A stretch of DNA of 38,640 nt from positions 1-38,640 of the forward strand of contig JAGBFB010000028.1 of NCBI GenBank assembly GCA_017936665.1, in the 5' to 3' direction. The stretch is from Spirochaetaceae bacterium. GTDB taxonomy: Bacteria; Spirochaetota; Spirochaetia; Treponematales; Treponemataceae. This document shows positions 5,426-38,421 of this stretch, piece after piece. The translations under genes and the position numbers were made by a program. Every line of letters starts with the position of its first letter. Position 1 is the stretch's first letter. The notes under the pieces are model-generated. The model saw only the letters and a list, made by a program, of their open reading frames with translations. It did not search any database and was not told the DNA's origin.

Positions 5426-8293
5426 ATGAGTATTTCAGAAAAGAAACTTATTATAAAAGGTGCAAGAGAACACAACTTAAAAAACGTTGATTTAGAAATT
5501 CCTAGAAACAAGTTGGTTGTGTTTTCAGGTCTTTCAGGTTCTGGAAAAAGTTCTCTTGCCTTTGATACTATTTTTGCTGAAGGTCAACGACGCTACATGG
5601 AAAGCCTTTCTTCTTATGCTCGGCAGTTTTTAGGAAGAATGGATAAGCCTGATGTGGATTATATCGAAGGACTTTCACCTGCGATTTCTATTGAACAAAA
5701 AACTACTCACAATAATCCTCGTTCTACAGTTGGTACTGTAACTGAAATTTACGACTATTACAGACTTCTATTTGCCAGAATTGGTCAGCCTCATTGTCCA
5801 AAATGTGGTCAAGAAATAAAAGAACAAAGTTCTGACCAAATTATCAATACGATTTTAAGTTGGCCAGAAGGAACAAAAATTCAAATTCTAGCCCCAGTAA
5901 TTCGGGGTAAAAAAGGTGAACATCAAAAAATCATTGAAGATGCAAAGAAATCAGGTTTTATTCGTGCAAGAATTGATGGTGTAATGGTAGAACTTGATGA
6001 AAATATAAAACTTGATAAACAAAAAAAACACACAATTGAACTTGTTGTAGATAGAATAAAAATTTCATCTGATGTAAGAAAGCGAATTGCTGAATCTGTA
6101 GAAACTGCCATCGAAAATGCTTGTGGAATTATTTTAGTAATTAAAAGTGGTGAACTTTTGCCAGATTCAGAAACAAAATCTCCAGATACGGAACATTTTT
6201 TCTCTCAAAAAAATGCTTGTCCAGATTGTGGAATTTCAATTCCTGAACTTCAACCTAGACTTTTTTCTTTTAACAATCCTTTTGGTGCTTGTCCTGAATG
6301 TACTGGTCTTGGTGAAAAAATGGAATTTGATATAGATTTGATTATTCCTGATAAATCTCTTTCTTTTAATGAAGGGGCAATTCAGTGGTATAATCCAGAT
6401 TCTGCTTGGAATCGTGCACGATTTGAAAGTCTTGCAAAATATCTTGGTTTTTCACTTGATGAGCCAATTTCAAACTTAAATAAAAATCAGTTTAATCAGT
6501 TGATGAATGGAACTTTAGAGCCAATTCAATATATTTACGAAAAATCTGACGGTTCTGGTTCTTTTAAATATAATCAACCTTGGCCAGGTTTGTTTTCAGA
6601 TTTAAAAAGACGGTATAACGAAACTTTTTCAGAAGCTCAACGAGAAAGTTTGCAAAGATTAATGAGTCATAAAATTTGTACTTGCTGTAATGGTCAAAAA
6701 TTAAATCCCTCAGCGTTAGCTGTAACAGTTGGTGGAAAAAATATTCATGATTTAACTTTGCTTTCTGTTGAAGATTCAATTAAATTTTTTGAAAATTTAA
6801 GTCTTACAGAAACTGAAAAACAAATTGCTGCCCAAATTGAAAAAGAAATAAAAAATCGTCTTGGTTTTTTGAAAAATGTTGGGCTTGAATATCTTACTTT
6901 AGAACGACAAGCGGGAACTCTTTCAGGTGGAGAGGCTCAACGAATTAGGCTTGCTACACAAATTGGTTCTAGTTTAACTGGAGTTTTGTATATTTTAGAT
7001 GAGCCTTCTATCGGTTTGCATCAGCGGGATAATCAGCGACTTATTGATACTTTAACTTATTTGCGTGACATTGGAAATACAGTTATTGTTGTAGAACATG
7101 ATGAACAAACTTTGCGTACAGCCGACTGGATTGTAGATTTAGGTCCAGGGGCTGGTGTTCATGGTGGCGAAATTGTGGCTTCTGGAACTCCAGAACAAGT
7201 TATGAAAATAAAAGAATCTCTTACTGGTCAATATCTTGCAGGAATTCTATCTATGGAAGTTCCAAAAGAACGCCGAAGTGGAAATGGAAATTTTATCAAA
7301 TTATCTGGTGTAACAGAGCATAATTTAAAAGATGTTTCTATCGAAATTCCTTTAGGAAAATTTACTTGTATTACAGGTGTTTCTGGTTCTGGAAAATCAA
7401 CTTTGATAAGTGATGTTTTATTTCCTGCAATTTCTAATCAAGTGATGAGGTCAAAACATCCTGTTGGTGCATATAAAAAATTAGAGGGAATTGAAAATAT
7501 CGATAAGGTAATAAATATTGACCAAAGTCCTATCGGTAGAACTCCTCGCTCAAATCCTGCAACTTATGTTGGCGTTTTTAATGCAATTCGTGATTTGTAT
7601 GCAAATTTACCAGAATCAAAAGCTCGTGGTTTTAAGCCTGGCAGATTTAGTTTTAATGTGAAAGGTGGAAGGTGCGAAAATTGTCAAGGTGCTGGTACTA
7701 TCACTATTGAAATGAACTTTTTACCAGATGTTTATGTTTGCTGTGATGTTTGCCACGGAAAGCGTTTTAATCAAGAAACTTTGGATGTTCGCTACAAAGG
7801 AAAAAATATTTCTGATGTTTTGGAAATGACCATCGAGGAAGCCGCCCTTTTCTTTGAAAAAATTCCACAGATTGCAAATAAATTAGAAACTTTAGTTTCT
7901 GTGGGCTTAGGCTATATTCAGCTTGGTCAATCAGCACTTACTCTTTCTGGAGGAGAGGCTCAGCGAGTTAAACTTGCAAATGAACTTGCAAAGCGTTCTA
8001 CAGGAAAAACACTTTACGTTATGGATGAACCTACAACAGGACTTCATTTTGCCGATGTTAAGCAACTTATGGATGTTATTAACCGTTTGGTAAATCAAGG
8101 AAACACTGTTGTGATGATAGAACATAATCTAGATGTTATTTTGCAATCAGATTATATTATTGATTTAGGACCTGAAGGTGGAACAAAAGGAGGAACTATT
8201 ATTGCAACTGGAACTCCTGAAGAAATCGCTAAGATAAAAAATTCACACACAGGATATTATTTAAAAGAATTATTGGATAGGGCAACTTTATAG
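5426..8293 (+). CDS. uvrA: Excinuclease ABC subunit A
   Basis: At 955 residues it is full length for UvrA, the damage-sensing ABC ATPase of nucleotide excision repair, which loads UvrB at lesions. Walker A motifs are GLSGSGKSS (35-43) and GVSGSGKST (near 650). ABC signatures LSGGEAQR occur near 498 and 839. The three zinc-binding regions are all present: CPKC (124-127), CPDC...CPEC (near 265-300) and CENC...CDVCHG (near 750-780). Also visible are LSPAISIEQK, DEPSIGLHQRD and DEPTTGLHFAD. Nothing is missing. The gene starts 23 bp after the EF-G stop and its TAG overlaps the next GTG start by one base, so the three genes are probably cotranscribed. Confidence 0.97.
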   Translation: MSISEKKLIIKGAREHNLKNVDLEIPRNKLVVFSGLSGSGKSSLAFDTIFAEGQRRYMESLSSYARQFLGRMDKPDVDYIEGLSPAISIEQKTTHNNPRSTVGTVTEIYDYYRLLFARIGQPHCPKCGQEIKEQSSDQIINTILSWPEGTKIQILAPVIRGKKGEHQKIIEDAKKSGFIRARIDGVMVELDENIKLDKQKKHTIELVVDRIKISSDVRKRIAESVETAIENACGIILVIKSGELLPDSETKSPDTEHFFSQKNACPDCGISIPELQPRLFSFNNPFGACPECTGLGEKMEFDIDLIIPDKSLSFNEGAIQWYNPDSAWNRARFESLAKYLGFSLDEPISNLNKNQFNQLMNGTLEPIQYIYEKSDGSGSFKYNQPWPGLFSDLKRRYNETFSEAQRESLQRLMSHKICTCCNGQKLNPSALAVTVGGKNIHDLTLLSVEDSIKFFENLSLTETEKQIAAQIEKEIKNRLGFLKNVGLEYLTLERQAGTLSGGEAQRIRLATQIGSSLTGVLYILDEPSIGLHQRDNQRLIDTLTYLRDIGNTVIVVEHDEQTLRTADWIVDLGPGAGVHGGEIVASGTPEQVMKIKESLTGQYLAGILSMEVPKERRSGNGNFIKLSGVTEHNLKDVSIEIPLGKFTCITGVSGSGKSTLISDVLFPAISNQVMRSKHPVGAYKKLEGIENIDKVINIDQSPIGRTPRSNPATYVGVFNAIRDLYANLPESKARGFKPGRFSFNVKGGRCENCQGAGTITIEMNFLPDVYVCCDVCHGKRFNQETLDVRYKGKNISDVLEMTIEEAALFFEKIPQIANKLETLVSVGLGYIQLGQSALTLSGGEAQRVKLANELAKRSTGKTLYVMDEPTTGLHFADVKQLMDVINRLVNQGNTVVMIEHNLDVILQSDYIIDLGPEGGTKGGTIIATGTPEEIAKIKNSHTGYYLKELLDRATL

Positions 8294-11200
8294 TGAAAAA
8301 AAATTTATTTTTACTATTTTTAATTTTCTCATTCTTTTTAACACATATTTTTGCGGAAGAGCAAAAAGTAGTTGAAACAAGTGAAAGTGCAGTTCAAGAC
8401 ACTTCTTTAATTTCAGAAAAAAAAGTTGAAACTGAAGTTACACCTACTGAAAATATTACAGAAATATCAGAAAATGCTGAAACTGATAATTCTAAAACAC
8501 AAACTTCTGAAAAAACAGAAAATTCTGATGAATCTAAAAAAAATAAAAAATCTACAAAAAAAGATAATGAAGAAACTAAAAAAACAAAATCCTCAAGTAC
8601 AATTTCAATTTTATCGGCACAGAAAACTGAATATTCTAAATCTGAAATTGGTTCTGATGTTATTATTTTAACAGGTGATGTAAAAGTTAAAATTGAACAA
8701 GGTGGAACAGGTTCAATGATTTATGCAGATAAAGTGAGCTATGAAAGAAAAAGACAGCGTTTATTTGCAGAAGGAAATGTTGTTATTGAACGGCTTTCTG
8801 GTTCAACAGTAACAGAAACATTAACTGCCACATCAGTTTTATTTAATGCAGAAACTCAAGAAGGTGTTTTTTCTGAAGGACGCATTGCACAAGCTAATTC
8901 TGATATGTTTAAACTTGATACAAATTCAAAATTAGTTGTTGATTCAGACATTTTTGGTAGAGACGATTCTGGTGTTATTGGTTTTAAAAATGGTTCTTTA
9001 ACATTTTGTGATGAAGAAGATCCCCATTGGAAAATTGATGCAAGTAGAATTTGGCTTTTACCAGGAAATGAATTTGCTTTTGTAAATGCTCGGTTCTTTG
9101 TAGGAAGTTTACCTACTTTGTGGTTACCATTTTTCTATTATCCTAAAGATGAAATGATTTTTAATCCAGTTATTGGTACTGATGATAGAAAAGGTTACTT
9201 TGTACAAACCTCAACTTATCTTGTGGGTAGAAAACCTCTTGATACATCTTCAGGTGGAGAAGATGATTATCTAAGTTTTTTGAAACCAACATCATTAAAA
9301 AAACAAGTAAGAGAAGGTCTTTTTTTACATAACCTTGAAGAAGACGCTTCTGGTGTTGGTTCAAATTATCTAAAATTCATGGCAGATTATTACACTAAAT
9401 TAGGTGGCTTTTTAGGTCTAGATGGAGTTTTTAAGCCTAAAAAAGTGTTTACAGATATTACTTTTTCAACACTGTTAGGATTTTCAAATACGTTATACAA
9501 AGATTTAGGTAAATATACTCCTTATAACAAAGAAAATAATAATCAAATTACAAATGATAAGGGATATTTTTTAGGATTTGAATTACCTTTTAGATTTTAT
9601 GTAAATCTAAAAACTACGTTATCTTATTCTCCATTTTCACTTTCTTTATCTATTCCTATTTATTCTGATGCTTATTTTAAATCAGATTTTTTTACAGACA
9701 GAAGTGAAACAATGGATTGGTTAGGTTTACTTACAAGTGGATTAACAGATGAAGATACAACAACATCATCTACTTCTGGAGTTACTTCTTATACTTGGTC
9801 AGCAAATGCTTCTTTTTCACCTAAAATAAGTTTTTTAAGTCCATTCATTTCAACTTTATCAATAAGTAACGTAAAATCTTCCATAGCATTTTCTTCAAAA
9901 AATAATGAATCATTAAAAGGTGCAGATGCAACTTATAGTCCAAATAGACAATTTTTTTATCCGTCACAAATTGTGCCTGTTGGGGTAAATTTAAATATTT
10001 CTGGTACGATTTTTTCATATCCGTTTAAGAAAAAAACAGAAAAAAAAGAAACTAAGACAGAAAAAAAAGAAAGTTCAGTTTCTAAAAGTGCATTGGCAAA
10101 AATATCCATTCCAGAAGAATTAAGCGAACCTGAAGAAAATCCAGAAGAACCTGAAGAAAATTCTGTCGAAACTATAGAGATTTCAGAAGAAGAAAAAAAA
10201 CACAATAAGGAACTAGAAAATCAACTAGTGCCAACCGTTACAACAAATGCTTATAAAAATTCTTCTAATAGTTCGCCTGTAAGTTATTCTTTAACTTATT
10301 CTATTACTCCAACTTACGATTCTTTGATATCATATAATTCAAATAAAACAACTTCGCCTGAAGAAATTAGTTTTACAGAAGAAAATTTTCAATCTACATA
10401 TTATAAAGTTTCTGCACCAACTCAACTTTCTAGTTCATTAAATCTTTTTAGAAATATTTTAAGTTTAAAAAATACATTGAAATTTTCGCCTCAGATGCAA
10501 GAACATCCATTTATTTCTGAGGAATATTATTCAACTGAATCTTCAAGAAATCAAATTGTGTTAAACGACCTTGCTGCAAAATCAATGGATCTTGTAAATA
10601 CAAATTCTTTAAGTATAAAACCATTTAGTAATTCACAGTTATTTGGTTCTACAACTTTATCATGGAATTCAACTGTTCAAATTATTGATACTGAATTTTT
10701 AGGTTCTGTAGATAATCCTGAATGGGAATACAAAAAAGCAAAATGGGACGAAGATGGAATTAAAGCTCATAACTTAAATTTAAATTTGGCTTACAATGGA
10801 GGAAATTCTTATTCACAATCTTTGTCCTTTACTTCAAACTTACCTCCAAGACTTGATACTTACACTGCAAGATTTAAATTTTCTTTTCCTTTTATGAATT
10901 TTTCTATGGAAACAGGAATTGCAGAAATTGATTCTGATACCAATAATGATGGCGAAATTGATGATGAAGTTAAAATTGGTAAGTATCTTGATACGTTTGA
11001 ATTTAATCCTTTGAAGCAAAGTTTAAGTCTTAGCTTTTTTGATAAAAAACTTTCACTTTCGCAATCATTTCAATATGACATAGAAGAACAGCATCCAACT
11101 TCTTTGTCTTTTTCTGCTTCAATTTGGGGAATTTCATTATCTTTTTCAATGAATTATACAATTCCATATAAATTAGATGAAAATAAAGGATGGGTAGCTC

Positions 11201-11769
11201 AAAAAGAAAAAGAATTCTTACCTAACGCAATAAATTTTAATTACAACGTTCCTTCTAAGAAATTTTCTTTCTGGAAAAATCGTATTTCATTAACTCCTGG
11301 TTTATCAACTTCGATAAAACTTGATATGGTTAGACCTACAAATAGTTATTTTATTTTTTCACCTTCAATTACTTTTAACATAAATGAATTTTTGAACATT
11401 AGTTTTAAATCTACATCAAGAAACGATGTTATTTTTAGATATTTCCAAGGAATGTTTGATTACGGAATAGAAGTTCCAGGTGAAAAAAATGTTATAAAAG
11501 ATTTATTGTATTCTTTTGATTTCAAAAATGAAGAAAATCGTAAATTATCTGGTTTTAAATTAAAAAGTTTTTCGATTATTTTAACACATGATTTACATGA
11601 CTGGGATTTTAAATCAGAATTTTCGATTGAACCAAAACTTATAACTGATGAAATTCCATATAGATATGATTTTAGTCCATATTTTTCAATATCTGTAGTT
11701 TGGAAACCTATGAATATGTTTAAAACTCAAATAGAAGACGAGGATGGCGAGATAACATTGAACCCTTGA
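8293..11769 (+). CDS. lptD: OstA/LptD-type outer-membrane assembly protein
   Basis: A 1158-residue protein starting at a GTG that overlaps the uvrA stop. Residues 1-22 form a signal peptide ending in FAEE. Residues ~25-105 are a Ser/Thr/Glu/Lys-rich linker, followed by an OstA (LptA-like) jellyroll at ~108-200 (GDVKVKIEQG, IYADKVSYERKRQRLFAEGNV). The segment LPTLWLPFFYYPKDEMIFNPVIG is typical of LptD at the entry to the beta-barrel. The remaining ~850 residues alternate aromatic and polar strands as in an outer-membrane barrel. A charged, repetitive insert (~residues 577-645) probably forms a loop. In proteobacteria LptD places LPS in the outer leaflet. Treponemes are generally considered LPS-free, so the cargo may be another glycolipid. 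The assignment is by domain order and is divergent from the E. coli protein. Confidence 0.8.
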   Translation: MKKNLFLLFLIFSFFLTHIFAEEQKVVETSESAVQDTSLISEKKVETEVTPTENITEISENAETDNSKTQTSEKTENSDESKKNKKSTKKDNEETKKTKSSSTISILSAQKTEYSKSEIGSDVIILTGDVKVKIEQGGTGSMIYADKVSYERKRQRLFAEGNVVIERLSGSTVTETLTATSVLFNAETQEGVFSEGRIAQANSDMFKLDTNSKLVVDSDIFGRDDSGVIGFKNGSLTFCDEEDPHWKIDASRIWLLPGNEFAFVNARFFVGSLPTLWLPFFYYPKDEMIFNPVIGTDDRKGYFVQTSTYLVGRKPLDTSSGGEDDYLSFLKPTSLKKQVREGLFLHNLEEDASGVGSNYLKFMADYYTKLGGFLGLDGVFKPKKVFTDITFSTLLGFSNTLYKDLGKYTPYNKENNNQITNDKGYFLGFELPFRFYVNLKTTLSYSPFSLSLSIPIYSDAYFKSDFFTDRSETMDWLGLLTSGLTDEDTTTSSTSGVTSYTWSANASFSPKISFLSPFISTLSISNVKSSIAFSSKNNESLKGADATYSPNRQFFYPSQIVPVGVNLNISGTIFSYPFKKKTEKKETKTEKKESSVSKSALAKISIPEELSEPEENPEEPEENSVETIEISEEEKKHNKELENQLVPTVTTNAYKNSSNSSPVSYSLTYSITPTYDSLISYNSNKTTSPEEISFTEENFQSTYYKVSAPTQLSSSLNLFRNILSLKNTLKFSPQMQEHPFISEEYYSTESSRNQIVLNDLAAKSMDLVNTNSLSIKPFSNSQLFGSTTLSWNSTVQIIDTEFLGSVDNPEWEYKKAKWDEDGIKAHNLNLNLAYNGGNSYSQSLSFTSNLPPRLDTYTARFKFSFPFMNFSMETGIAEIDSDTNNDGEIDDEVKIGKYLDTFEFNPLKQSLSLSFFDKKLSLSQSFQYDIEEQHPTSLSFSASIWGISLSFSMNYTIPYKLDENKGWVAQKEKEFLPNAINFNYNVPSKKFSFWKNRISLTPGLSTSIKLDMVRPTNSYFIFSPSITFNINEFLNISFKSTSRNDVIFRYFQGMFDYGIEVPGEKNVIKDLLYSFDFKNEENRKLSGFKLKSFSIILTHDLHDWDFKSEFSIEPKLITDEIPYRYDFSPYFSISVVWKPMNMFKTQIEDEDGEITLNP

Positions 11770-27174: not shown

Positions 27175-27678
27175 ATGAAGTGTGATTTTTGCCATGAAAA
27201 TGATGCAATAATTTTTGTAAGACAGGTAACAAATAATTCTACAAAAGAACTTTATCTTTGTGCTGAATGTGCAGAAAAGAGAGGAATTTCAGAAAGTTCT
27301 TCTAAAATGGATTTAAATTTTAGTGGACTTTTAGGAGATTTAATCGGTAAGCAAAGAGAGGAACGTAATAAAGTTTGTCCAACTTGTGGACGTAGATTGC
27401 AAATTATTTTAAAAGAAAAAACTGTAGGTTGTGCAGAATGTTATAATGTTTTCAAAAAAGAAATAACTGAAATTTTAAAAGGTTTGGGTGTAACAAAATC
27501 CTATACAGGAAGTTTACCTAATAGAATTGAAAATTTTAAATCTTCTCTTACTGATAGAGCACTTTTACAAGAGAAATTACAAAATGCAATTCAAGAAGAA
27601 AATTATGAAAAGGCAGCAGTTTACAGAGATAAATTAAAGATGTTGGATAATCCATCAATAGAAGAGGCAAGTGAATGA
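27175..27678 (+). CDS. mcsA: McsA-like zinc-finger/UVR protein
   Basis: The 167-residue protein has two pairs of CxxC at C3/C6 and C29/C32 and another two at C68/C71 and C86/C89. It ends in a UVR helix pair (~128-160, LLQEKLQNAIQEENYEKAAVYRDKLKML). McsA activates the arginine kinase McsB and links it to ClpC in Firmicutes. AGGT precedes the ATG. It overlaps mcsB by 4 bp. It lies 18 bp after the lol genes, so the quality-control genes probably share their transcript. Confidence 0.92.
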   Translation: MKCDFCHENDAIIFVRQVTNNSTKELYLCAECAEKRGISESSSKMDLNFSGLLGDLIGKQREERNKVCPTCGRRLQIILKEKTVGCAECYNVFKKEITEILKGLGVTKSYTGSLPNRIENFKSSLTDRALLQEKLQNAIQEENYEKAAVYRDKLKMLDNPSIEEASE

Positions 27679-28763
27679 GAAAAACAGAAATTTCTGATGC
27701 ATGGTATGGATCTAATGGTCCAGATAATGATGTTGTGCTTTCTTCTAGAGTTAGACTTGCTAGAAATTTAGCAAATTTTCCTTTCCCACAAGGATTTAAA
27801 AATTCTGATGGGGATAGAGTTCAATCTTTAGTTTTTGATGCCTTCCATAAAATTGATGAGAACGAAACATATCAGTCCTTATTAATTTCTGAACTTGATT
27901 CTTTAGGTCAAAAAATTTTATCAGAAAGAGGTGTTATTGAACCTGATTCAATTTTGCAAACTTCATCTGGTTTGATTTTACGTGGTGATGGAAGAGTTTC
28001 ATGTACTGTAAATTGTTATGACCATATTAGATTGTCTTCGTTTGTTACTGGTTTAGATTTGTCTAATGCAAAAAAACTTGTAAAAGAAATTGATGATAAA
28101 CTTCAAAAACATTTACAGATTGCAGGTTCTGTTGAATTTGGTTATTTAACTTCTGCAATAAAAGATGCAGGTAGTGGAATGAAAATATCTTTACTAGTTC
28201 ACCTTCCTGCTATAAGTTATGGCGGCATGCTAGATAGAGTTTTAAAAGAAATCATGTCCGAAGGTTTTTCTGTTATTGGATATTATGGTTCTGGCATGAC
28301 ATTAGGTTCTTCCCTTGGTGCTTTTTATAAAATTTCAACGGAAGTTTCTTTTTCTGAAGATGAAGAAATTCAATTAGAAAAAATTAATAATTTAGGAAAA
28401 AAAATAATTGATTTTGAAAGAAAGGTTCGCCTTGAAATTGCCGATAATAAACCAACCTTTGTAAGAGATTTAGTTTATAAAGCAATTGCAATGGTAAAAT
28501 ATAGTCGTTTTATTGATAGTAGAGATGGAATTGATTTAATATCAAAAATCAAATTTGGGCTAGATTTAGGATTGTTAACTGGAATTGAAACAAATGTTTT
28601 ATTTTCGTTACTTTATCGTGTTCAAAATGCTCATCTTTCCTATGTAATTCGTTCAAGTGATTTGTCTTATGAAAAGGATGTAAATACAGAAGAACTTAAA
28701 ATTGAAAGATTACGTTCTTTGATTTTACAAGAAACCCTGAACACAATGCAAATTACAGCATAA
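27675..28763 (+). CDS. mcsB: McsB-like guanidino kinase homologue with altered active site
   Basis: The 362-residue length and domain order match McsB, the protein-arginine kinase that marks ClpCP substrates in Firmicutes. The ATP-site segment VLSSRVRLARN (21-31) is intact. The catalytic NEEDH loop of phosphagen kinases reads N113-C114-Y115-D116-H117, so both glutamates are lost. The active-site cysteine of the CPTN motif is Ala161 in GYLTSAIKDAGSG. The flanking sequence aligns without gaps, so this is substitution, not frameshift. The C-terminal McsB domain is present (FGLDLGLLTGIETNVLFSLLYRVQ). It may therefore be a pseudokinase or a ClpC adaptor that binds but does not phosphorylate. GAGG precedes the ATG within mcsA. 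clpC follows after 20 bp. No ctsR is present. Confidence 0.88.
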   Translation: MRKTEISDAWYGSNGPDNDVVLSSRVRLARNLANFPFPQGFKNSDGDRVQSLVFDAFHKIDENETYQSLLISELDSLGQKILSERGVIEPDSILQTSSGLILRGDGRVSCTVNCYDHIRLSSFVTGLDLSNAKKLVKEIDDKLQKHLQIAGSVEFGYLTSAIKDAGSGMKISLLVHLPAISYGGMLDRVLKEIMSEGFSVIGYYGSGMTLGSSLGAFYKISTEVSFSEDEEIQLEKINNLGKKIIDFERKVRLEIADNKPTFVRDLVYKAIAMVKYSRFIDSRDGIDLISKIKFGLDLGLLTGIETNVLFSLLYRVQNAHLSYVIRSSDLSYEKDVNTEELKIERLRSLILQETLNTMQITA

Positions 28764-28783: not shown

Positions 28784-31354
28784 ATGATTAAAGGATTAAC
28801 AAAACGTGCATATAAACTTTTAACTGTTTTGGCTCAAGATGAAGGCAGAAGAAATTCTAGTACAGTTTTATTGCCTGAACATATTCTTTTGGCTTTAATA
28901 AAGTCTGGAGATGGTATAGGTTATGAAGTTTTAATAAATTTAAAAGTAAATATTTTGAATTTACAACTTGTTTTAGAACAAAGTTTAAAGTCTGAAAAGG
29001 AAAATGTATCTTTTGCAGATTTGCCACCATCAAGACGATTGAGAACTTTATTAGATTCTGCCTCAATCGAATCACGAACTTTACGAAATGAATATGTTGG
29101 AACTGAACATTTGTTAATTGCTGCTGCTAAAGAAGATTCTTCAGTTTTTAATGAATATATAAAAAAATGCAATATAAAAATTGATGATTTAAGAAGGGAA
29201 GCCTCTTTACTTAATTCTTCAAGACCCATGCCACAAATTTCAAAACCATTTAATACAGAAGGTGTTTCTGTTTTTGCAAATTCAAATAAAGGTTCTAGTA
29301 AACCAAACAGCCAAAGTGCTTCTATTTTGCAAGAATTTAGTAAGGACATTACAGAAAAGGCAAAAAATGGTGAAGTTGATCCTGTAATCGGTAGGGATAA
29401 AGAAATAAATCGTGTTGTACAAATTTTGTGTAGGCGTACAAAAAATAATCCAGTTTTAATTGGTGAACCTGGCGTTGGAAAAACAGCAGTTGTAGAAGGT
29501 TTAGCAATTAAAATTGCTTCAGGGGAAGTTCCAAAAATTTTGCAAAAAAAGAGGCTTTTAATTTTAGATTTAGCCCTTGTAATTGCTGGAACAAAATTTC
29601 GTGGTGAATTTGAAGAAAGAATTAAACGAATAATGAAAGAAGTAAAAGAACAGAAAAATATTATTTTGTTTATTGATGAACTTCATACGATTGTTGGTGC
29701 TGGTGGTTCAGAAGGTTCTATGGATGCTTCAAATATGATAAAGCCAGCCCTTTCTCGTGGGGAACTTCAGTGTATCGGAGCAACTACTTTAAATGAATAC
29801 AGAAAATATTTTGAAAAAGATTCTGCTTTAGAACGCCGATTTCAAACAGTTATTGTTGACGAACCATCTGTAAAAGAAACCATCGATATTCTCGAAGGTA
29901 TAAAAAGTAAGTACGAACAATTTCATGGTGTAAAATACGAAGATAATCTTATGGAATTTATTGCAAAAATTTCTAAGCGTTATATTACAGGTAGATTTTT
30001 ACCAGATAAAGCCATTGATGTTTTAGATGAAGCTGGTTCTGTAAAAAAAATTCAAACAGATACAGAACCTACACTTTATGATTTTTATGAAAGTAAAATT
30101 GAAGAACTAACAAAAATGAAGCATAATCTTGTTCAATCTCAAGATTATGAAAAAGCCGCAAGTGTAAGAGATGAACTTTATAAAATCAGAGATGAGTTTG
30201 AGCAATTTAAAAATAATCCAGAATCTCAAACTGCAAACTTTACAGGCATTGTAACTAAAAAAGATGTTTGTGATGTAATTTCTACAATGACTGGAATCCC
30301 TCTTGAACAACTTGATGAAGATGAATCACAGCGTTTAATCAATATGGAAAAAGAACTTCATAAAACTATTGTAGGACAAGATGTAGCTATCAATCTAATT
30401 TCATCAGCAATTAGAAGGTCAAGAGCAGGTGTTTCCTCTTTTAATCGTCCAACAGGTTCTTTTATCTTCCTTGGTCCTACTGGTGTTGGAAAAACTTTAC
30501 TTGCAAAAACCTTGGCAAAATTTTTGTTTGGAAAAGAAGATGCTTTAATTCGTGTGGATATGAGCGACTACATGGAAAAACATAATGCAAGTCGTCTTGT
30601 GGGAGCTCCACCAGGATATGTTGGATACGAAGAAGGTGGCGTTTTAACAGAAAAAGTTAGACGAAATCCTTATTCTGTAATTCTTCTTGATGAAATTGAA
30701 AAAGCACATCCTGATGTATTTAATCTTTTACTTCAAATTTTAGAGGAAGGTGAACTAAAAGATAATCTTGGTCATACTGTAAACTTTAAAAATACAGTAA
30801 TTATTATGACAAGTAATGCTGGGGTTCGACAAATTTCAAATGAAAGCCGCTTAGGTTTTAGTTCTAATGAAAATGCGATTTTAGATTATTCTGAAATTAA
30901 ATCAAGTGCCATGGCAGAATTGAAAAGAATAATGAGTCCAGAACTTTTAAATCGTATTGACGATATTGTAGTTTTCAGTGCCTTATCAAAAGCAGAAATT
31001 TCTACGATTTTGGGAATACAAATTTCTGAGTTAGCAACTCGCCTTGAAGAGCAACATTTATCAATTCAGTTAACTAACAAAGCTCGGGATTATCTAATTG
31101 AAAACGGATATGAACCTTCCATGGGAGCTCGTCCAATGCGTCGTCTTATTCAGCGTGAAATTGAAGATGAACTTGCAACAAAAATCATTAATGGCGAATG
31201 TTCAAGTGGAGATATTGTTAGTGTTGAATATCGTAATTCTAAATTGCAAGTTAAGATAAAGAAAAATTCTTCTTTGCTAGAAAATGAAAATTTGGAAGCA
31301 AATTTAGAACAAGAAAATTCCCAAGAAAAAGATACTTCTCTTGTTATAAACTAA
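28784..31354 (+). CDS. clpC: ClpC-type AAA+ unfoldase
   Basis: This 856-residue Hsp100 protein has a Clp N domain (~1-145), AAA module 1 with GEPGVGKTAVVEG (near 227), and a UVR-containing middle segment (~440-470, MKHNLVQSQDYEKAASVRDEL), diagnostic of ClpC rather than ClpA. AAA module 2 has GPTGVGKTLLAKTLA (near 564) and LLDEIEKAHPDVF. An LGF tripeptide (near residue 690, SRLGFSS) matches the ClpP-docking loop, so partnership with ClpP is likely. AAGGA precedes the ATG. The C terminus carries a nonconserved acidic/Ser-rich tail. It follows the mcsA-mcsB pair, suggesting a ClpC adaptor system. Confidence 0.95.
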   Translation: MIKGLTKRAYKLLTVLAQDEGRRNSSTVLLPEHILLALIKSGDGIGYEVLINLKVNILNLQLVLEQSLKSEKENVSFADLPPSRRLRTLLDSASIESRTLRNEYVGTEHLLIAAAKEDSSVFNEYIKKCNIKIDDLRREASLLNSSRPMPQISKPFNTEGVSVFANSNKGSSKPNSQSASILQEFSKDITEKAKNGEVDPVIGRDKEINRVVQILCRRTKNNPVLIGEPGVGKTAVVEGLAIKIASGEVPKILQKKRLLILDLALVIAGTKFRGEFEERIKRIMKEVKEQKNIILFIDELHTIVGAGGSEGSMDASNMIKPALSRGELQCIGATTLNEYRKYFEKDSALERRFQTVIVDEPSVKETIDILEGIKSKYEQFHGVKYEDNLMEFIAKISKRYITGRFLPDKAIDVLDEAGSVKKIQTDTEPTLYDFYESKIEELTKMKHNLVQSQDYEKAASVRDELYKIRDEFEQFKNNPESQTANFTGIVTKKDVCDVISTMTGIPLEQLDEDESQRLINMEKELHKTIVGQDVAINLISSAIRRSRAGVSSFNRPTGSFIFLGPTGVGKTLLAKTLAKFLFGKEDALIRVDMSDYMEKHNASRLVGAPPGYVGYEEGGVLTEKVRRNPYSVILLDEIEKAHPDVFNLLLQILEEGELKDNLGHTVNFKNTVIIMTSNAGVRQISNESRLGFSSNENAILDYSEIKSSAMAELKRIMSPELLNRIDDIVVFSALSKAEISTILGIQISELATRLEEQHLSIQLTNKARDYLIENGYEPSMGARPMRRLIQREIEDELATKIINGECSSGDIVSVEYRNSKLQVKIKKNSSLLENENLEANLEQENSQEKDTSLVIN

Positions 31355-32690: not shown

Positions 32691-33521
32691 CTATTTTGTT
32701 AATGCGTTTATATCTTCTACAGAAAGACCTGTTGCTTTTGCTATATTTTCTACAGTTAGAGACATTGTTAATAAATTTTTAGCAGTTTCGATGGCTTTTT
32801 GTTGAGAACCTTGTGAGATGCCTTGCTGGATTCCTTGTGAGATACCTTGTTCAATTCCTTCTTTAAGTCCACGTCGAAAGTTGTCTCTGTCATGTAAATT
32901 CATACTTTGATACTCCTTTTTGTTGACTTCGTGTTTTTTGATTTTTTCAACGATAGAAGAAAGTTTTTCTGTAAAATCGTCAACAGGCTTTTGATTACAA
33001 ATATACTGTAAAAAAGCTGAAATTTCTAGGTCTTTTTCAATTTTAAACGAAGTTGCGTTAAAAATCTTTTTTATGGATTTATCACTCAAAACTAAATCGT
33101 AATTTTCATCACAGCGGTTTTGAAAAGTATAAATCGGTAAGCCTAAATGGAATGGATCGAATTTACAAATAAAAATTACAAAACTTGTGGGTAGTTCTGA
33201 ATAATCTTGTCCTTTAAGTAAATTATCGCAATCTAACATTGACTGATAAAAACGAGTTCTTAAAGGAATGTTATCATCAAGTGCGTTTTGTAGTTCAATA
33301 TCGAATATTTTATCGCTGTCTTTCACATAAACATCAAGACGTACGCCTTTACTTTCGTAATATGGTGAAATCGTTTTTTCAATTTCAGGATAAGTGATGT
33401 GGTCAATTTTGATTTTTAACAATCTTTCAAGTAATTCTTGGCAAATATCTTGGTTTTCATGCAAGACTTTTTCAAACATGTAATGGTCTGCAAATGTTAA
33501 ATCTTCAAATTTCTTAAACAT
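32691..33521 (-). CDS. Rpn/PD-(D/E)XK nuclease family protein
   Basis: The 276-residue protein belongs to the Rpn (YhgA-like transposase/PDDEXK_2) family. It begins FKKFEDLTFADHYMFEKVL, and the nuclease core RLDVYVKDSDKIFDIELQ places D63, E76 and Q78 at the metal site. The C terminus has the glutamine/glycine repeat typical of the family (GIEQGISQGIQQGIS). I start it at 33521, where GAGGAG stands nine bases upstream on the minus strand; an in-frame ATG at 33581 has no ribosome binding site and adds an unrelated 20 residues. Rpn proteins have been linked to recombination-promoting nuclease activity and phage defence. Mobility is not evident here, as no terminal repeats flank it. Confidence 0.88.
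   Translation of the reverse strand: MFKKFEDLTFADHYMFEKVLHENQDICQELLERLLKIKIDHITYPEIEKTISPYYESKGVRLDVYVKDSDKIFDIELQNALDDNIPLRTRFYQSMLDCDNLLKGQDYSELPTSFVIFICKFDPFHLGLPIYTFQNRCDENYDLVLSDKSIKKIFNATSFKIEKDLEISAFLQYICNQKPVDDFTEKLSSIVEKIKKHEVNKKEYQSMNLHDRDNFRRGLKEGIEQGISQGIQQGISQGSQQKAIETAKNLLTMSLTVENIAKATGLSVEDINALTK
32809..32856 (-). repeat. 24-bp tandem repeat encoding the QG-rich Rpn tail
   Basis: Two imperfect copies, 32809-32832 and 32833-32856 on the + strand, each begin CCTTGTGAGAT and encode an eight-residue GIxQGISQ-like unit. Copy-number change would alter tail length without shifting frame. Confidence 0.7.
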
Positions 33522-33629
33522 AAATTTTTTCTCCTCAAAAATAATTTTTTTTACATCTTTATTATTGAGAAAAAATTGCATTTTTTAGCAAAAACTATGA
33601 AAAATTTTGAAATTTTTTTGCGTTTATAG

Positions 33630-34230: not shown

Positions 34231-37200
34231 ATGAAAAAACTATGGATTCCAATATTTATAATATTGGTATTAACAATGACTTTTACAGTTTTTAGCTGTA
34301 AAGACCCAGAACCAGAACCTGGAACTGGTGTAGAAAATCCAACACAAACACCAGATAATAGTGATCAGAGTGATGAAACGACTCAACCTGGTGATTCAGA
34401 TTCTGATAAAGAGGATTCTAGTACGGGGGGGGGTACAACTCCTGTAGCTACTTATACTGTTAGATTTTTGTATGATGAAAGTACAAAAATTAGTGACGAT
34501 ATAACAGATAAAAAAGTAGGAGAAAAAATCAATTTACCAACCGTAAAAGATGTTGAAAGAAAAGGTTTTTCAGGTTGGTTTACTTCAAATTCAAACACAG
34601 GAACACCTATTACAACAGAAAAAGCAGGTGGTGTTTATACTGTAGATTCAAAAGATGCTATTAATAATGTTATAACTCTTTATGCTCTCTATTACGATTT
34701 AGCAAATGAAATCCCAGTAACTGCAATTAAAATTCAAAACGAAAATGAAATTAATTTATCAAAATTAGATATTGGAAATACAGTTACATTCAATATTACA
34801 TACGAACCAGAAAATGCAACTGTAAAACCAAGTGTAAATTGGTCTGTAAGTGATGCTTCAATTTTTGATTTAACTGAATCAAATGGAAAAGTAACAATTA
34901 AAGCAAAAAAAGTTGGAAGTGCAACTTTAAATGCAGTTCTTTCTACAAATGATACAATAAAGGATAGTGTTTCTGCCACAGTTATAAAATCTTTACTAAG
35001 TTTAAGTGTTGCTAAAACAACAGATTATGATTCATCTTCTCCAAGTTTTACAGCAACTGCTAGATATTCAGATAATTCAACAGAAGATGTAACATCAAGT
35101 GCAACATGGACTTCTTCAAACGAAGATGTTGCTACAGTTTCTGCTGGTGTTGTTACTTTGAAAGCTGCTGGCGAAACAACAATTTCTGTATCATATACTT
35201 ATGAAGGTGTTACAAAATCTGGCGGAAACCAAATTATAACTGTAAAATCTAGTGGTGGAACAACAAATAGTTATGTGTTTTATTTCTTATCAAGCTACAA
35301 TGAAGTTTCTGGTGGTGGATATCTTTATGGTTGGAAAGATGGAGATGTTAAACCTTTTGGTGAGTGGCCAGGAACAAAAATGAGCCTCACAGATGCAGAA
35401 AATGCTTACTATCTTATTGTTGAAGATATGTCTGGAATGAAAGGCTTGATTTTTAATAATAATGGTTCAAACAAAACAGGCGATATTACTTCTTTCCCTG
35501 CAAGTGCAGGACACTGGTTGTATTGGCATAACGGTAATAATTGGGAATGGAAAGAATACACAGATTCTCCTGTATCTGTTCCAGGTTCTTCAGGTGGTTC
35601 TTTATCTGGTGATGTAACTGTAGAACCTTTACCAGATGACGATGGTTCAGATGAAGGTGATAATTCAGGTTCTGGCAGTGGAAGTTCTTCAGGAAATACA
35701 GGTTCTTCTATAACAGATAGAATTATTCTTCATGCTTATGAGTATGTAAATGTTTATGTTTGGGATACTTCAGATTCATCTTTGAACGCAAAGCATAAAA
35801 CAATGGATCAAGAAGGTGATTCCAACTGGTATACCGCAACATTAAATGTAACAAGTGCTTCTATTATCTTTACAAAATCTGCCGGTGATTGGGATTCCCA
35901 AACAGGTAACCTTTCACGAGAGGCAGGTGAATGGTGGTATAAAAATGGTACTTGGACAGACTATAATCCAGATGACACAGTTGTACCAGAAATTTCTAAA
36001 TTAACAGCTAATAAAACAGGAGTAATCTCTGGAATCGTAGAATTTACAGTTTCTGCAACAGATAATTTAAAACTTGCAACAGCCACATTCTATTGTGATG
36101 AAAAACAGATTGGCTCTGTAAATATGACTTCAACAAGCGATACTCAAACTTTTGATTGGGATTCTAGATATTGTTCAAATGGAAACCATATAATAAAAGT
36201 TGTTGTAGCTGATGTTGGAGGAAATACTTCTGAAAAAACTCTTTCTATTACAACAGAAAACGAAAATCTTCCACCTGTTCCTTCTATGACAGGTGCTAAA
36301 GTAGCAAAATTTGGTGATACAAAAACATTCAAGAGTACTTCAACTGATCCAAACGGAACAATATCAGCTTATGCTTGGTCTGTAACTGGAGGTGCAACTA
36401 TTGAAGGTTCTACAACAAGTGAAAGTGTTCAAATTAAATTCCCAGAAACAGAAACAACTTGTGTTATTACATTAGTCGTAACTGATAATGATGGTGCAAA
36501 ATCAACTGTTACAAAAGAAGTTGAAGTAAAAAATCTAACAGTTACAGACTTCCGTGAAGAAACAATTTACTTCTTGATGACAACACGTTTCTATGATGGT
36601 GATCCTACAAATAACCAATATTCTTGGGACGAAGGTGGAGATTATCTAAAGAAAACAGAAGGTGACTATGCTTGGCGTGGAGACTTTGCTGGAATTATCG
36701 AAAAACTTGACTATATCAAAGCTCTTGGATTTAGTGCAATTTGGATTACTCCTGTTGTAGAAAATTCATCTGGTATTGACTATCACGGATATCATGCCTC
36801 TGACTTTAGTAGAGTTGATCCTCGTTATGCAAAAACAGGTCAAGATCCTATGGCTGCATATCAAGAATTGATTGATGCTTGTCATGCAAAAGGAATCAAA
36901 GTAATTCAAGATATCGTATTGAACCATACAGGTAACTTTGGTGAAGCAGGCTTGTTCAAAATGTTCGATACAAGAAAAACTGATGTTGATGAAAATGGTC
37001 ATACAAACTTTGTAACTCTAGATCCTTATGGTGGATATGGATATGAAGCATTGAAAAAAGCTCTTGCTGGAAGTGATTACGATAGTCTTCCTGGTGAACA
37101 GCAATATGGTGCTCGTATCAATGCCATGAAAGAAGATACAAATGATACAAACTTGATTTATCATCATGCAAAAATGATTGATTGGAATAGCGAAAACTGT

Positions 37201-38421
37201 CAATTAGGTCAAATGGCAGGAGACTGTGTAGACTTAAATACAGAAAATCCAACTGTTTATAATTACTTAATTAATTGCTATAACAACTATATTGATATGG
37301 GTGTTGATGGTTTCCGTATCGATACAGTAAAACATATTTCTCGTTTGACATTTAACAAAACATTCTTGCCAGCATTTAGAGAAACAGGTGGTGATAGTTT
37401 CTTCATGTTTGGTGAAACTTGTGCAAGATATCGTGGTCGTTGGAACGAAGGTGTTCCTGCTCTTTCTCCTTCATTCTATACTTGGGCAGAAACAGAAAAC
37501 TTTGCTTGGAGTGATACAGATGCCGCTACAAACAGTGCTTCTGCAACAAAACATTTTGGTACTTACAATAGTGATTTTAATCCTCCAAAAAATTCAATTG
37601 CTAACCACAAATTGAACGGAAATGAATATCATACTCCAGATTACTCAAAACGTTCTTATCTTGACCAAATTGACTTCCCAATGCACTGGGCTTTCAATAG
37701 TGTAAATGATGCTTATAATACTTGTCTATCTTATGATGATGACTTTAATGATGCAACTTGGAATGTAACTTATGTTGATAGTCATGACTACGCTCCAGAT
37801 GGTGCCCCAGAAAATCAACGATTTGCAGGTTATTGGCCAGATAAACTTAACTTGATGTTTACTTTCCGTGGTATTCCTTGTATTTATTACGGTTCTGAAA
37901 TTGAATTCAAGAAAGGAATGCCTATTGATCCTGCTAACACAAGAACTTCTCTTGAAGAATCTGGACGTGCTTACTTAGGAACACATCTTGAAGGAACAGT
38001 TACAGCAACAGATTATGGTGAATATGAAGCAACAGGTGCTGTTGCAGAAACTTTGAATCATGATTTGGCACAGCACATCATTCGTTTGAACAAAATTCGT
38101 CGTGCAGTTCCTGCATTGCAGAAAGGTCAGTATTCTACAGAAGGATGTAGCGGTTCTATTGCATTTAAGCGAAGATTTACAGATGCAGAAACTGGTGTTG
38201 ATAGTTTTGTTTGTGTAACAATCAATGGTGGTGCTACATTCTCAAATATTCCAAATGGAACATATAGAGAATTGATTACAGGTAAAACTGTAACAGGTTC
38301 TTCAATTACATCTGATTCTATTGGACAAGGTAATATGCGTGTTTATGTTCTTCAAAATGCAACTGCTGATGCTTATGGTGCAAATTGCAAAATTGGAACT
38401 GATGGTGCATATCTCAATTAG
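34231..38421 (+). CDS. Multidomain lipoprotein alpha-amylase (GH13)
   Basis: This 1396-residue lipoprotein has AAGGGGG five bases before the ATG, a signal sequence and lipidated C23 (TVFSC), and an acidic Pro/Ser/Asp tether. An InlB-type repeat (~72-155), two Big2-like Ig domains (~158-345) and a CBM26-like starch-binding module (~346-444; WPGTKM, WLYWHNGNNWEW) follow. Next come a G/S linker, a second CBM26/25-like module (~495-580), an Ig-like domain (~582-675) and a PKD-like domain (~678-769). The catalytic (beta/alpha)8 barrel follows from ~771. GH13 regions: DIVLNHTG (D894, H899), GFRIDTVKH (R1029, nucleophile D1031), FGETC (acid/base E1062) and VDSHD (D1186), so the site is complete. It hydrolyses alpha-1,4-glucans at the cell surface. 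A G9 tract lies at codons 65-68. A Gly/Asp-rich C-terminal beta-domain closes it. Confidence 0.93.
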   Translation: MKKLWIPIFIILVLTMTFTVFSCKDPEPEPGTGVENPTQTPDNSDQSDETTQPGDSDSDKEDSSTGGGTTPVATYTVRFLYDESTKISDDITDKKVGEKINLPTVKDVERKGFSGWFTSNSNTGTPITTEKAGGVYTVDSKDAINNVITLYALYYDLANEIPVTAIKIQNENEINLSKLDIGNTVTFNITYEPENATVKPSVNWSVSDASIFDLTESNGKVTIKAKKVGSATLNAVLSTNDTIKDSVSATVIKSLLSLSVAKTTDYDSSSPSFTATARYSDNSTEDVTSSATWTSSNEDVATVSAGVVTLKAAGETTISVSYTYEGVTKSGGNQIITVKSSGGTTNSYVFYFLSSYNEVSGGGYLYGWKDGDVKPFGEWPGTKMSLTDAENAYYLIVEDMSGMKGLIFNNNGSNKTGDITSFPASAGHWLYWHNGNNWEWKEYTDSPVSVPGSSGGSLSGDVTVEPLPDDDGSDEGDNSGSGSGSSSGNTGSSITDRIILHAYEYVNVYVWDTSDSSLNAKHKTMDQEGDSNWYTATLNVTSASIIFTKSAGDWDSQTGNLSREAGEWWYKNGTWTDYNPDDTVVPEISKLTANKTGVISGIVEFTVSATDNLKLATATFYCDEKQIGSVNMTSTSDTQTFDWDSRYCSNGNHIIKVVVADVGGNTSEKTLSITTENENLPPVPSMTGAKVAKFGDTKTFKSTSTDPNGTISAYAWSVTGGATIEGSTTSESVQIKFPETETTCVITLVVTDNDGAKSTVTKEVEVKNLTVTDFREETIYFLMTTRFYDGDPTNNQYSWDEGGDYLKKTEGDYAWRGDFAGIIEKLDYIKALGFSAIWITPVVENSSGIDYHGYHASDFSRVDPRYAKTGQDPMAAYQELIDACHAKGIKVIQDIVLNHTGNFGEAGLFKMFDTRKTDVDENGHTNFVTLDPYGGYGYEALKKALAGSDYDSLPGEQQYGARINAMKEDTNDTNLIYHHAKMIDWNSENCQLGQMAGDCVDLNTENPTVYNYLINCYNNYIDMGVDGFRIDTVKHISRLTFNKTFLPAFRETGGDSFFMFGETCARYRGRWNEGVPALSPSFYTWAETENFAWSDTDAATNSASATKHFGTYNSDFNPPKNSIANHKLNGNEYHTPDYSKRSYLDQIDFPMHWAFNSVNDAYNTCLSYDDDFNDATWNVTYVDSHDYAPDGAPENQRFAGYWPDKLNLMFTFRGIPCIYYGSEIEFKKGMPIDPANTRTSLEESGRAYLGTHLEGTVTATDYGEYEATGAVAETLNHDLAQHIIRLNKIRRAVPALQKGQYSTEGCSGSIAFKRRFTDAETGVDSFVCVTINGGATFSNIPNGTYRELITGKTVTGSSITSDSIGQGNMRVYVLQNATADAYGANCKIGTDGAYLN
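34425..34433 (+). repeat. G9 homopolymer tract in the amylase coding sequence
   Basis: Nine consecutive G residues (ACG GGG GGG GGT, codons 65-68) lie in the tether just after the signal peptide. Gain of one G brings TAG within about ten codons. Loss of one G brings TAG after about five codons (GTA CAA CTC CTG TAG). Slippage would thus switch the enzyme off cleanly. Poly-G tracts are known phase-variation sites in Treponema pallidum. Confidence 0.8.

Follow-up and report, generated by a model that had tools for sequence, protein, structure and literature searches.

A predicted McsB pseudokinase encoded between mcsA and clpC in the class Spirochaetia

The window (the whole stretch of DNA analysed here, 38,640 nucleotides from a Spirochaetaceae bacterium) carries an intact mcsA–mcsB–clpC operon, at the locus that the first-pass annotation had described (Table 1). 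The mcsA and mcsB genes overlap by ATGA, and the zinc ligands of McsA are Cys3, Cys6, Cys29 and Cys32 and Cys68, Cys71, Cys86 and Cys89. ClpC possesses Clp_N repeats, two conserved N-domain Glu motifs (PEH and GTEH), two Walker A motifs, a UVR/M-domain and an LGF ClpP loop. Among loci longer than 8 kb, mcsA adjoins mcsB upstream in 86 of 90 and clpC adjoins it downstream in 84 of 90.

Table 1 Genes of the operon and active-site motifs of the window McsB
Feature	Position	Strand	Description	Match
mcsA	27175..27678	+	167 aa; a pair of zinc-binding CxxC domains, with a UVR motif at the C terminus	PDB 8wtb McsA, E 2.5e-17
mcsB homologue	27675..28763	+	362 aa; predicted catalytically dead (pseudo-McsB)	PF00217
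SSRVRLARN, residues 23–31	27741..27767	+	Retained phosphate-binding Arg motif; R25, R27 and R30 correspond to Gs R29, R31 and R34	
NCYDH, residues 113–117	28011..28025	+	Replaces NEEDH; both Glu gone, N, D and H retained	
SAIKDAGSGMK, residues 160–170	28152..28184	+	Replaces SCPTNxGTGLR; Cys to Ala161, Arg to Lys170	
IGYYGS, residues 201–206	28275..28292	+	Replaces RGTYGE; ATP-site Arg to Ile201, lid Glu to Ser206	
IERLRS, residues 343–348	28701..28718	+	Replaces RDxxRA, the phosphoarginine-reading pocket; R337 to Ile, D338 to Glu, R341 retained	
clpC	28784..31354	+	856 aa	S. aureus ClpC, E 9e-238

The reading frame of mcsB is undisturbed over its 362 codons, in agreement with the earlier claim. 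The product matches the ATP:guanido phosphotransferase catalytic domain (PF00217) with an E-value of 1.5e-32, above the curated cut-off, and the solved McsB structures of Geobacillus and Bacillus with E-values down to 1e-47. An AlphaFold (AF2) model, for which 40 treponeme sequences served as input, has a pLDDT of 91.1 and matches PDB entry 6tv6 chain B (VIA Z of 41.1 and rmsd of 2.2 over 337 residues), so that the predicted fold is that of a complete two-domain McsB, including the C-terminal dimerisation domain. Against the NCBIfam protein arginine kinase equivalog the window McsB scores 235.6 bits, below the cut-off of 385, as do residue-complete spirochaete McsBs (338–346 bits). The possibility of an additional, active McsB in the genome is ruled out by a single PF00217 match in an assembly that is 99.2% complete.

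McsB of Bacillus phosphorylates arginines, so tagging proteins for destruction. The active-site residues of GsMcsB are R29, R31, R126, E122, E213 and C168 (PMC12387690). B. subtilis McsB is kinase-inactive as the C167S mutant and loses activity upon a single Arg-to-Lys change at R29, R31, R34, R125, R176, R207 or R337; the phosphoarginine pocket motif is defined as RDxxRA (PMC7235348). Residues of the window McsB were matched to these positions by realignment with GsMcsB and 119 homologues, the alignment being less certain in the pocket (the RDxxRA region) than at the active site. C114 and Y115 correspond to Gs E121 and E122, A161 (codon at 28155–28157, within TSAIKDAGSG) to C168, K170 to Gs R177 (Bs R176), I201 to Gs R208 (Bs R207), S206 to Gs E213 and I343 to Gs R338 (Bs R337). 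Translation and alignment, the latter with McsBs of Bacillus, Geobacillus and other spirochaetes, confirm the two catalytic losses that had been called before, namely NEEDH to NCYDH at residues 113–117 and the Cys of SCPTNxGTG to Ala161. The accompanying statement that the Arg-containing ATP-site motif is kept stands in part: SSRxRLAR and the HIR motif (R119, equivalent to Gs R126 and Bs R125) are present, and the ATP-site arginines Bs R29, R34 and R125 are retained, but the changes of R176 to Lys, R207 to Ile and the lid Glu213 to Ser had been overlooked.

The window McsB thus combines three changes, R176 to Lys, R207 to Ile and R337 to Ile, at positions where B. subtilis McsB does not tolerate Lys. 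R337 is also absent from active-type spirochaete McsBs, in which it is not conserved, and R176 is Lys in 15% of them. Since the equivalents of R176 and R337 vary in some residue-complete spirochaete McsBs, weight is placed on E122, C168, R207 and E213 together. As judged from these residues, the window McsB has very probably lost arginine kinase activity.

The loss extends well beyond the window genome. McsB was found in 145 of 294 genomes of the order by protein search and in 241 of 393 genomes of the phylum by PF00217 search; the survey was confined to the phylum, outside which lies, for example, Chlamydia. The set for the class Spirochaetia comprised 157 sequences (110 from the window's family, 25 from the rest of the order and 22 from the rest of the class). 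E122 and C168 are both present in none of these 157, versus 33 of 66 sequences sampled from other classes of the phylum, a sample enriched for best-scoring matches, from which no frequency should be read. The active-site Cys (Bs C167, Gs C168) is retained in 0 of 47 sequences of the order and class and in 1 of 108 of the family. Restriction of the loss to the window genome is ruled out, as it is class-wide among the homologues examined, and the earlier pseudokinase reading, which has good support, holds for the class as a whole. Among the carriers with species names are Treponema socranskii, T. parvum, T. porcinum and T. berlinense.

In a tree of 132 rows, from which the active-site columns were excluded, the window's family is recovered as a single clade (96*), and every class member has an McsB of the inactive type. 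The active or inactive label changes at least six times over the phylum. The simplest reading is that the loss took place once at the base of the class and again in other parts of the phylum, the deep branches being weakly supported. Several families outside the class, including those of loci L167, L201, L202 and L204, also carry inactive-type McsBs, apparently through separate losses. Two genomes labelled as the window's genus (G579 and G586, loci L229 and L230) encode inactive-type McsBs (NVDDH) only 23–28% identical to that of the window, a divergence well above expectation within one genus.

Purifying selection maintains pseudo-McsB, presumably because it is McsA's partner. For close pairs, the median dN/dS of McsB is 0.074 in the family (49 pairs, including some in which one genome comes from two collections) and 0.060 for the active type (8 pairs); the corresponding ClpC medians are 0.045 and 0.038. 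At equal ClpC divergence, McsB of the family is conserved about as well as active-type McsB, which rules out a general relaxation of constraint in the family; McsB at the level of the order evolves faster. Frames are intact in nearly all genomes, with breaks confined to single genomes (G153 and G161, for example). Chance, sequencing error and pseudogene formation are ruled out as sources of the losses because the identical pattern recurs in more than 150 homologues, with intact frames and a dN/dS of about 0.07.

In PDB entry 8wtc, it is the second zinc finger of McsA that touches the kinase domain of McsB (PMC12387690). In the family, the Cys residues of the second zinc-binding domain are 100% conserved, and those of the first about 79%. 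McsA is absent from 13 of 13 McsB-less genomes of the family and present in 15 of 15 McsB-bearing ones; full-length ClpC is retained in most of the 13. This joint loss of McsA and McsB while ClpC mostly stays indicates that the two behave as one accessory module. In another family of the order (f3), McsA and inactive-type McsB are fused in one open frame at five loci (L112, L115, L118, L119 and L123). A sub-clade of the window's family has lost the first McsA zinc finger while retaining all four Cys of the second (loci L078, L081–L083, L087–L091, L093, L094, L099, L102 and L104).

CtsR and YwlE, partners in phosphoarginine signalling, were also sought. CtsR (PF05848) was detected in 0 of 118 genomes of the family, and in the Lactococcus control. 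The window genome has two LMWPc phosphatase genes, with the signatures CHGNICRS and CVHNSCRS; the YwlE signature is CTGNTCRS. Neither gene is a clear YwlE-type phosphatase, a signature alone being unable to prove specificity. The N-domain Glu residues of ClpC were considered as a sign of phosphoarginine reading and set aside as undiagnostic, being conserved in all groups compared.

We consider it moderately probable that the window McsB is a pseudokinase that binds ClpC together with McsA and thereby acts on it. The complete McsB fold would persist in a protein no longer able to phosphorylate arginine, a catalytic loss presumably common to the class Spirochaetia. McsA would join pseudo-McsB through its second zinc finger, and the resulting module would bind ClpC, switching or targeting it by protein–protein contact as an adaptor or an allosteric regulator. 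What we infer here is contact with McsA and with ClpC, and the sense in which ClpC would respond; ClpC is the putative target by virtue of the operon and by analogy with Bacillus McsB, a partner and adaptor of ClpC. Control of ClpC by binding would fit the operon, the co-retention and fusion of McsA and McsB, and the missing CtsR and clear YwlE-type phosphatase. For the class as a whole, the proposal that McsA–McsB serves ClpC as an adaptor or allosteric switch independent of phosphorylation is evenly poised. In B. subtilis, a kinase-competent McsB was required for the stimulation of ClpC and for adaptor function (PMC5506225), and we therefore only infer ClpC control without catalysis. B. subtilis McsB released from McsA by oxidation still takes CtsR off DNA, without kinase action (PMC5506225).

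Alternatively, pseudo-McsB may be a passive anchor that does no more than stabilise McsA, sequester it or fend off ClpC, with no delivery of substrates. The joint loss of McsA and McsB from genomes that usually keep ClpC agrees with this, as does the strong binding and silencing of McsB by ClpC in unstressed B. subtilis (PMC5506225), but a constraint equal to that of active-type McsB goes beyond the obvious needs of a mere anchor, and we regard this reading as unlikely. Rather less plausible is a nucleotide or phosphoarginine sensor, in which ligand binding without catalysis would set the grip on McsA or ClpC. The phosphate-binding SSRxR is present in most of the family (R29 in 80% and R31 in 69%), the pocket residue R341 is retained in 100% and the D338 position is often Asp or Glu; however, R337 is lost and the equivalents of R31 and R126 are absent from many family members and from most of the order, which makes ligand binding improbable as a conserved function of the whole clade.

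Residual or altered catalysis, a slow phosphate transfer or one to another acceptor relying on the arginines still present and a surrogate base, is improbable. Some activity can survive single Glu or Cys changes in phosphagen kinases, the window McsB keeps the equivalents of R29, R31, R34 and R125, and the family retains R34 in essentially all sequences and E122 in about 20%. Against this, E121, E122, C168, R208 and E213 are replaced jointly with no substitute residue conserved across the family, B. subtilis McsB is inactivated by comparable single changes, and the same positions are variable, as released sites should be. Decay of a former arginine kinase into a relic, suggested by the long branches seen within the order and the class and by the fast divergence of order-level McsB relative to ClpC, is scarcely credible given the intact frames, the conserved operon and the McsA–McsB fusions, and is refuted for the family by the low dN/dS.

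Pseudo-McsB is homologous to the McsB kinase and lies in the same gene setting. It shares with the McsB kinases (Geobacillus 6fh1-3, Bacillus 6tv6/8wtb and S. aureus 8gqd) the full-length fold of kinase and C-terminal domain, the McsA partner gene, the neighbouring clpC and the SSRxRLAR and N..DH motifs. In contrast to them, it is devoid of the Glu pair, the Cys, two ATP-site arginines, the lid Glu and the pocket R337, and should therefore not be called a protein-arginine kinase; nor was CtsR found in the genomes of its family. The B. subtilis C167S protein is likewise kinase-inactive and retains part of the McsB role in MgsR turnover (PMC7235348), but it is a laboratory single mutant in an otherwise present phosphoarginine system, whereas pseudo-McsB is natural, multi-residue and class-wide. 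MecA-type adaptors activate and target ClpC by binding (PMC13125188), a mode that pseudo-McsB, a different protein, shares only as a proposal. Bacterial Ser/Thr pseudokinase families are similarly conserved and keep their fold, which is not that of pseudo-McsB, without catalysis; the review describing them leaves arginine kinases aside (PMC12599244).

The literature searched describes no pseudokinase of the phosphagen fold. The open-access literature, subscription journals being outside the search, yielded no report of a dead McsB in Spirochaetia, and for McsB together with Treponema only an unrelated drug-target list.

In Bacillus, the adaptor and kinase roles of McsB are hard to dissect, as kinase activity is required (PMC5506225). 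A large natural clade in which the chemistry is gone while the protein and McsA, and mostly the operon too, persist lets the separation of these roles be tested directly. Annotations as 'protein arginine kinase', and inferences of phosphoarginine signalling of any kind, are unsafe in treponemes and their relatives. If the proposed mechanism is correct, McsB can serve as an adaptor without phosphorylating arginine, and a phosphagen-fold branch would be added to the known pseudokinases.

Three further open reading frames of the window were noted. One of the PD-(D/E)XK transposase family (PF12784) lies shortly downstream of the clpC region (32691–33581, minus strand). Another encodes 1,158 residues with no Pfam match (8293–11769, plus strand) and is flanked by uvrA and phoH. 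The third encodes 1,396 residues (34231–38421, plus strand), with a Big_2 domain and a CBM26 starch-binding module in the first 500.
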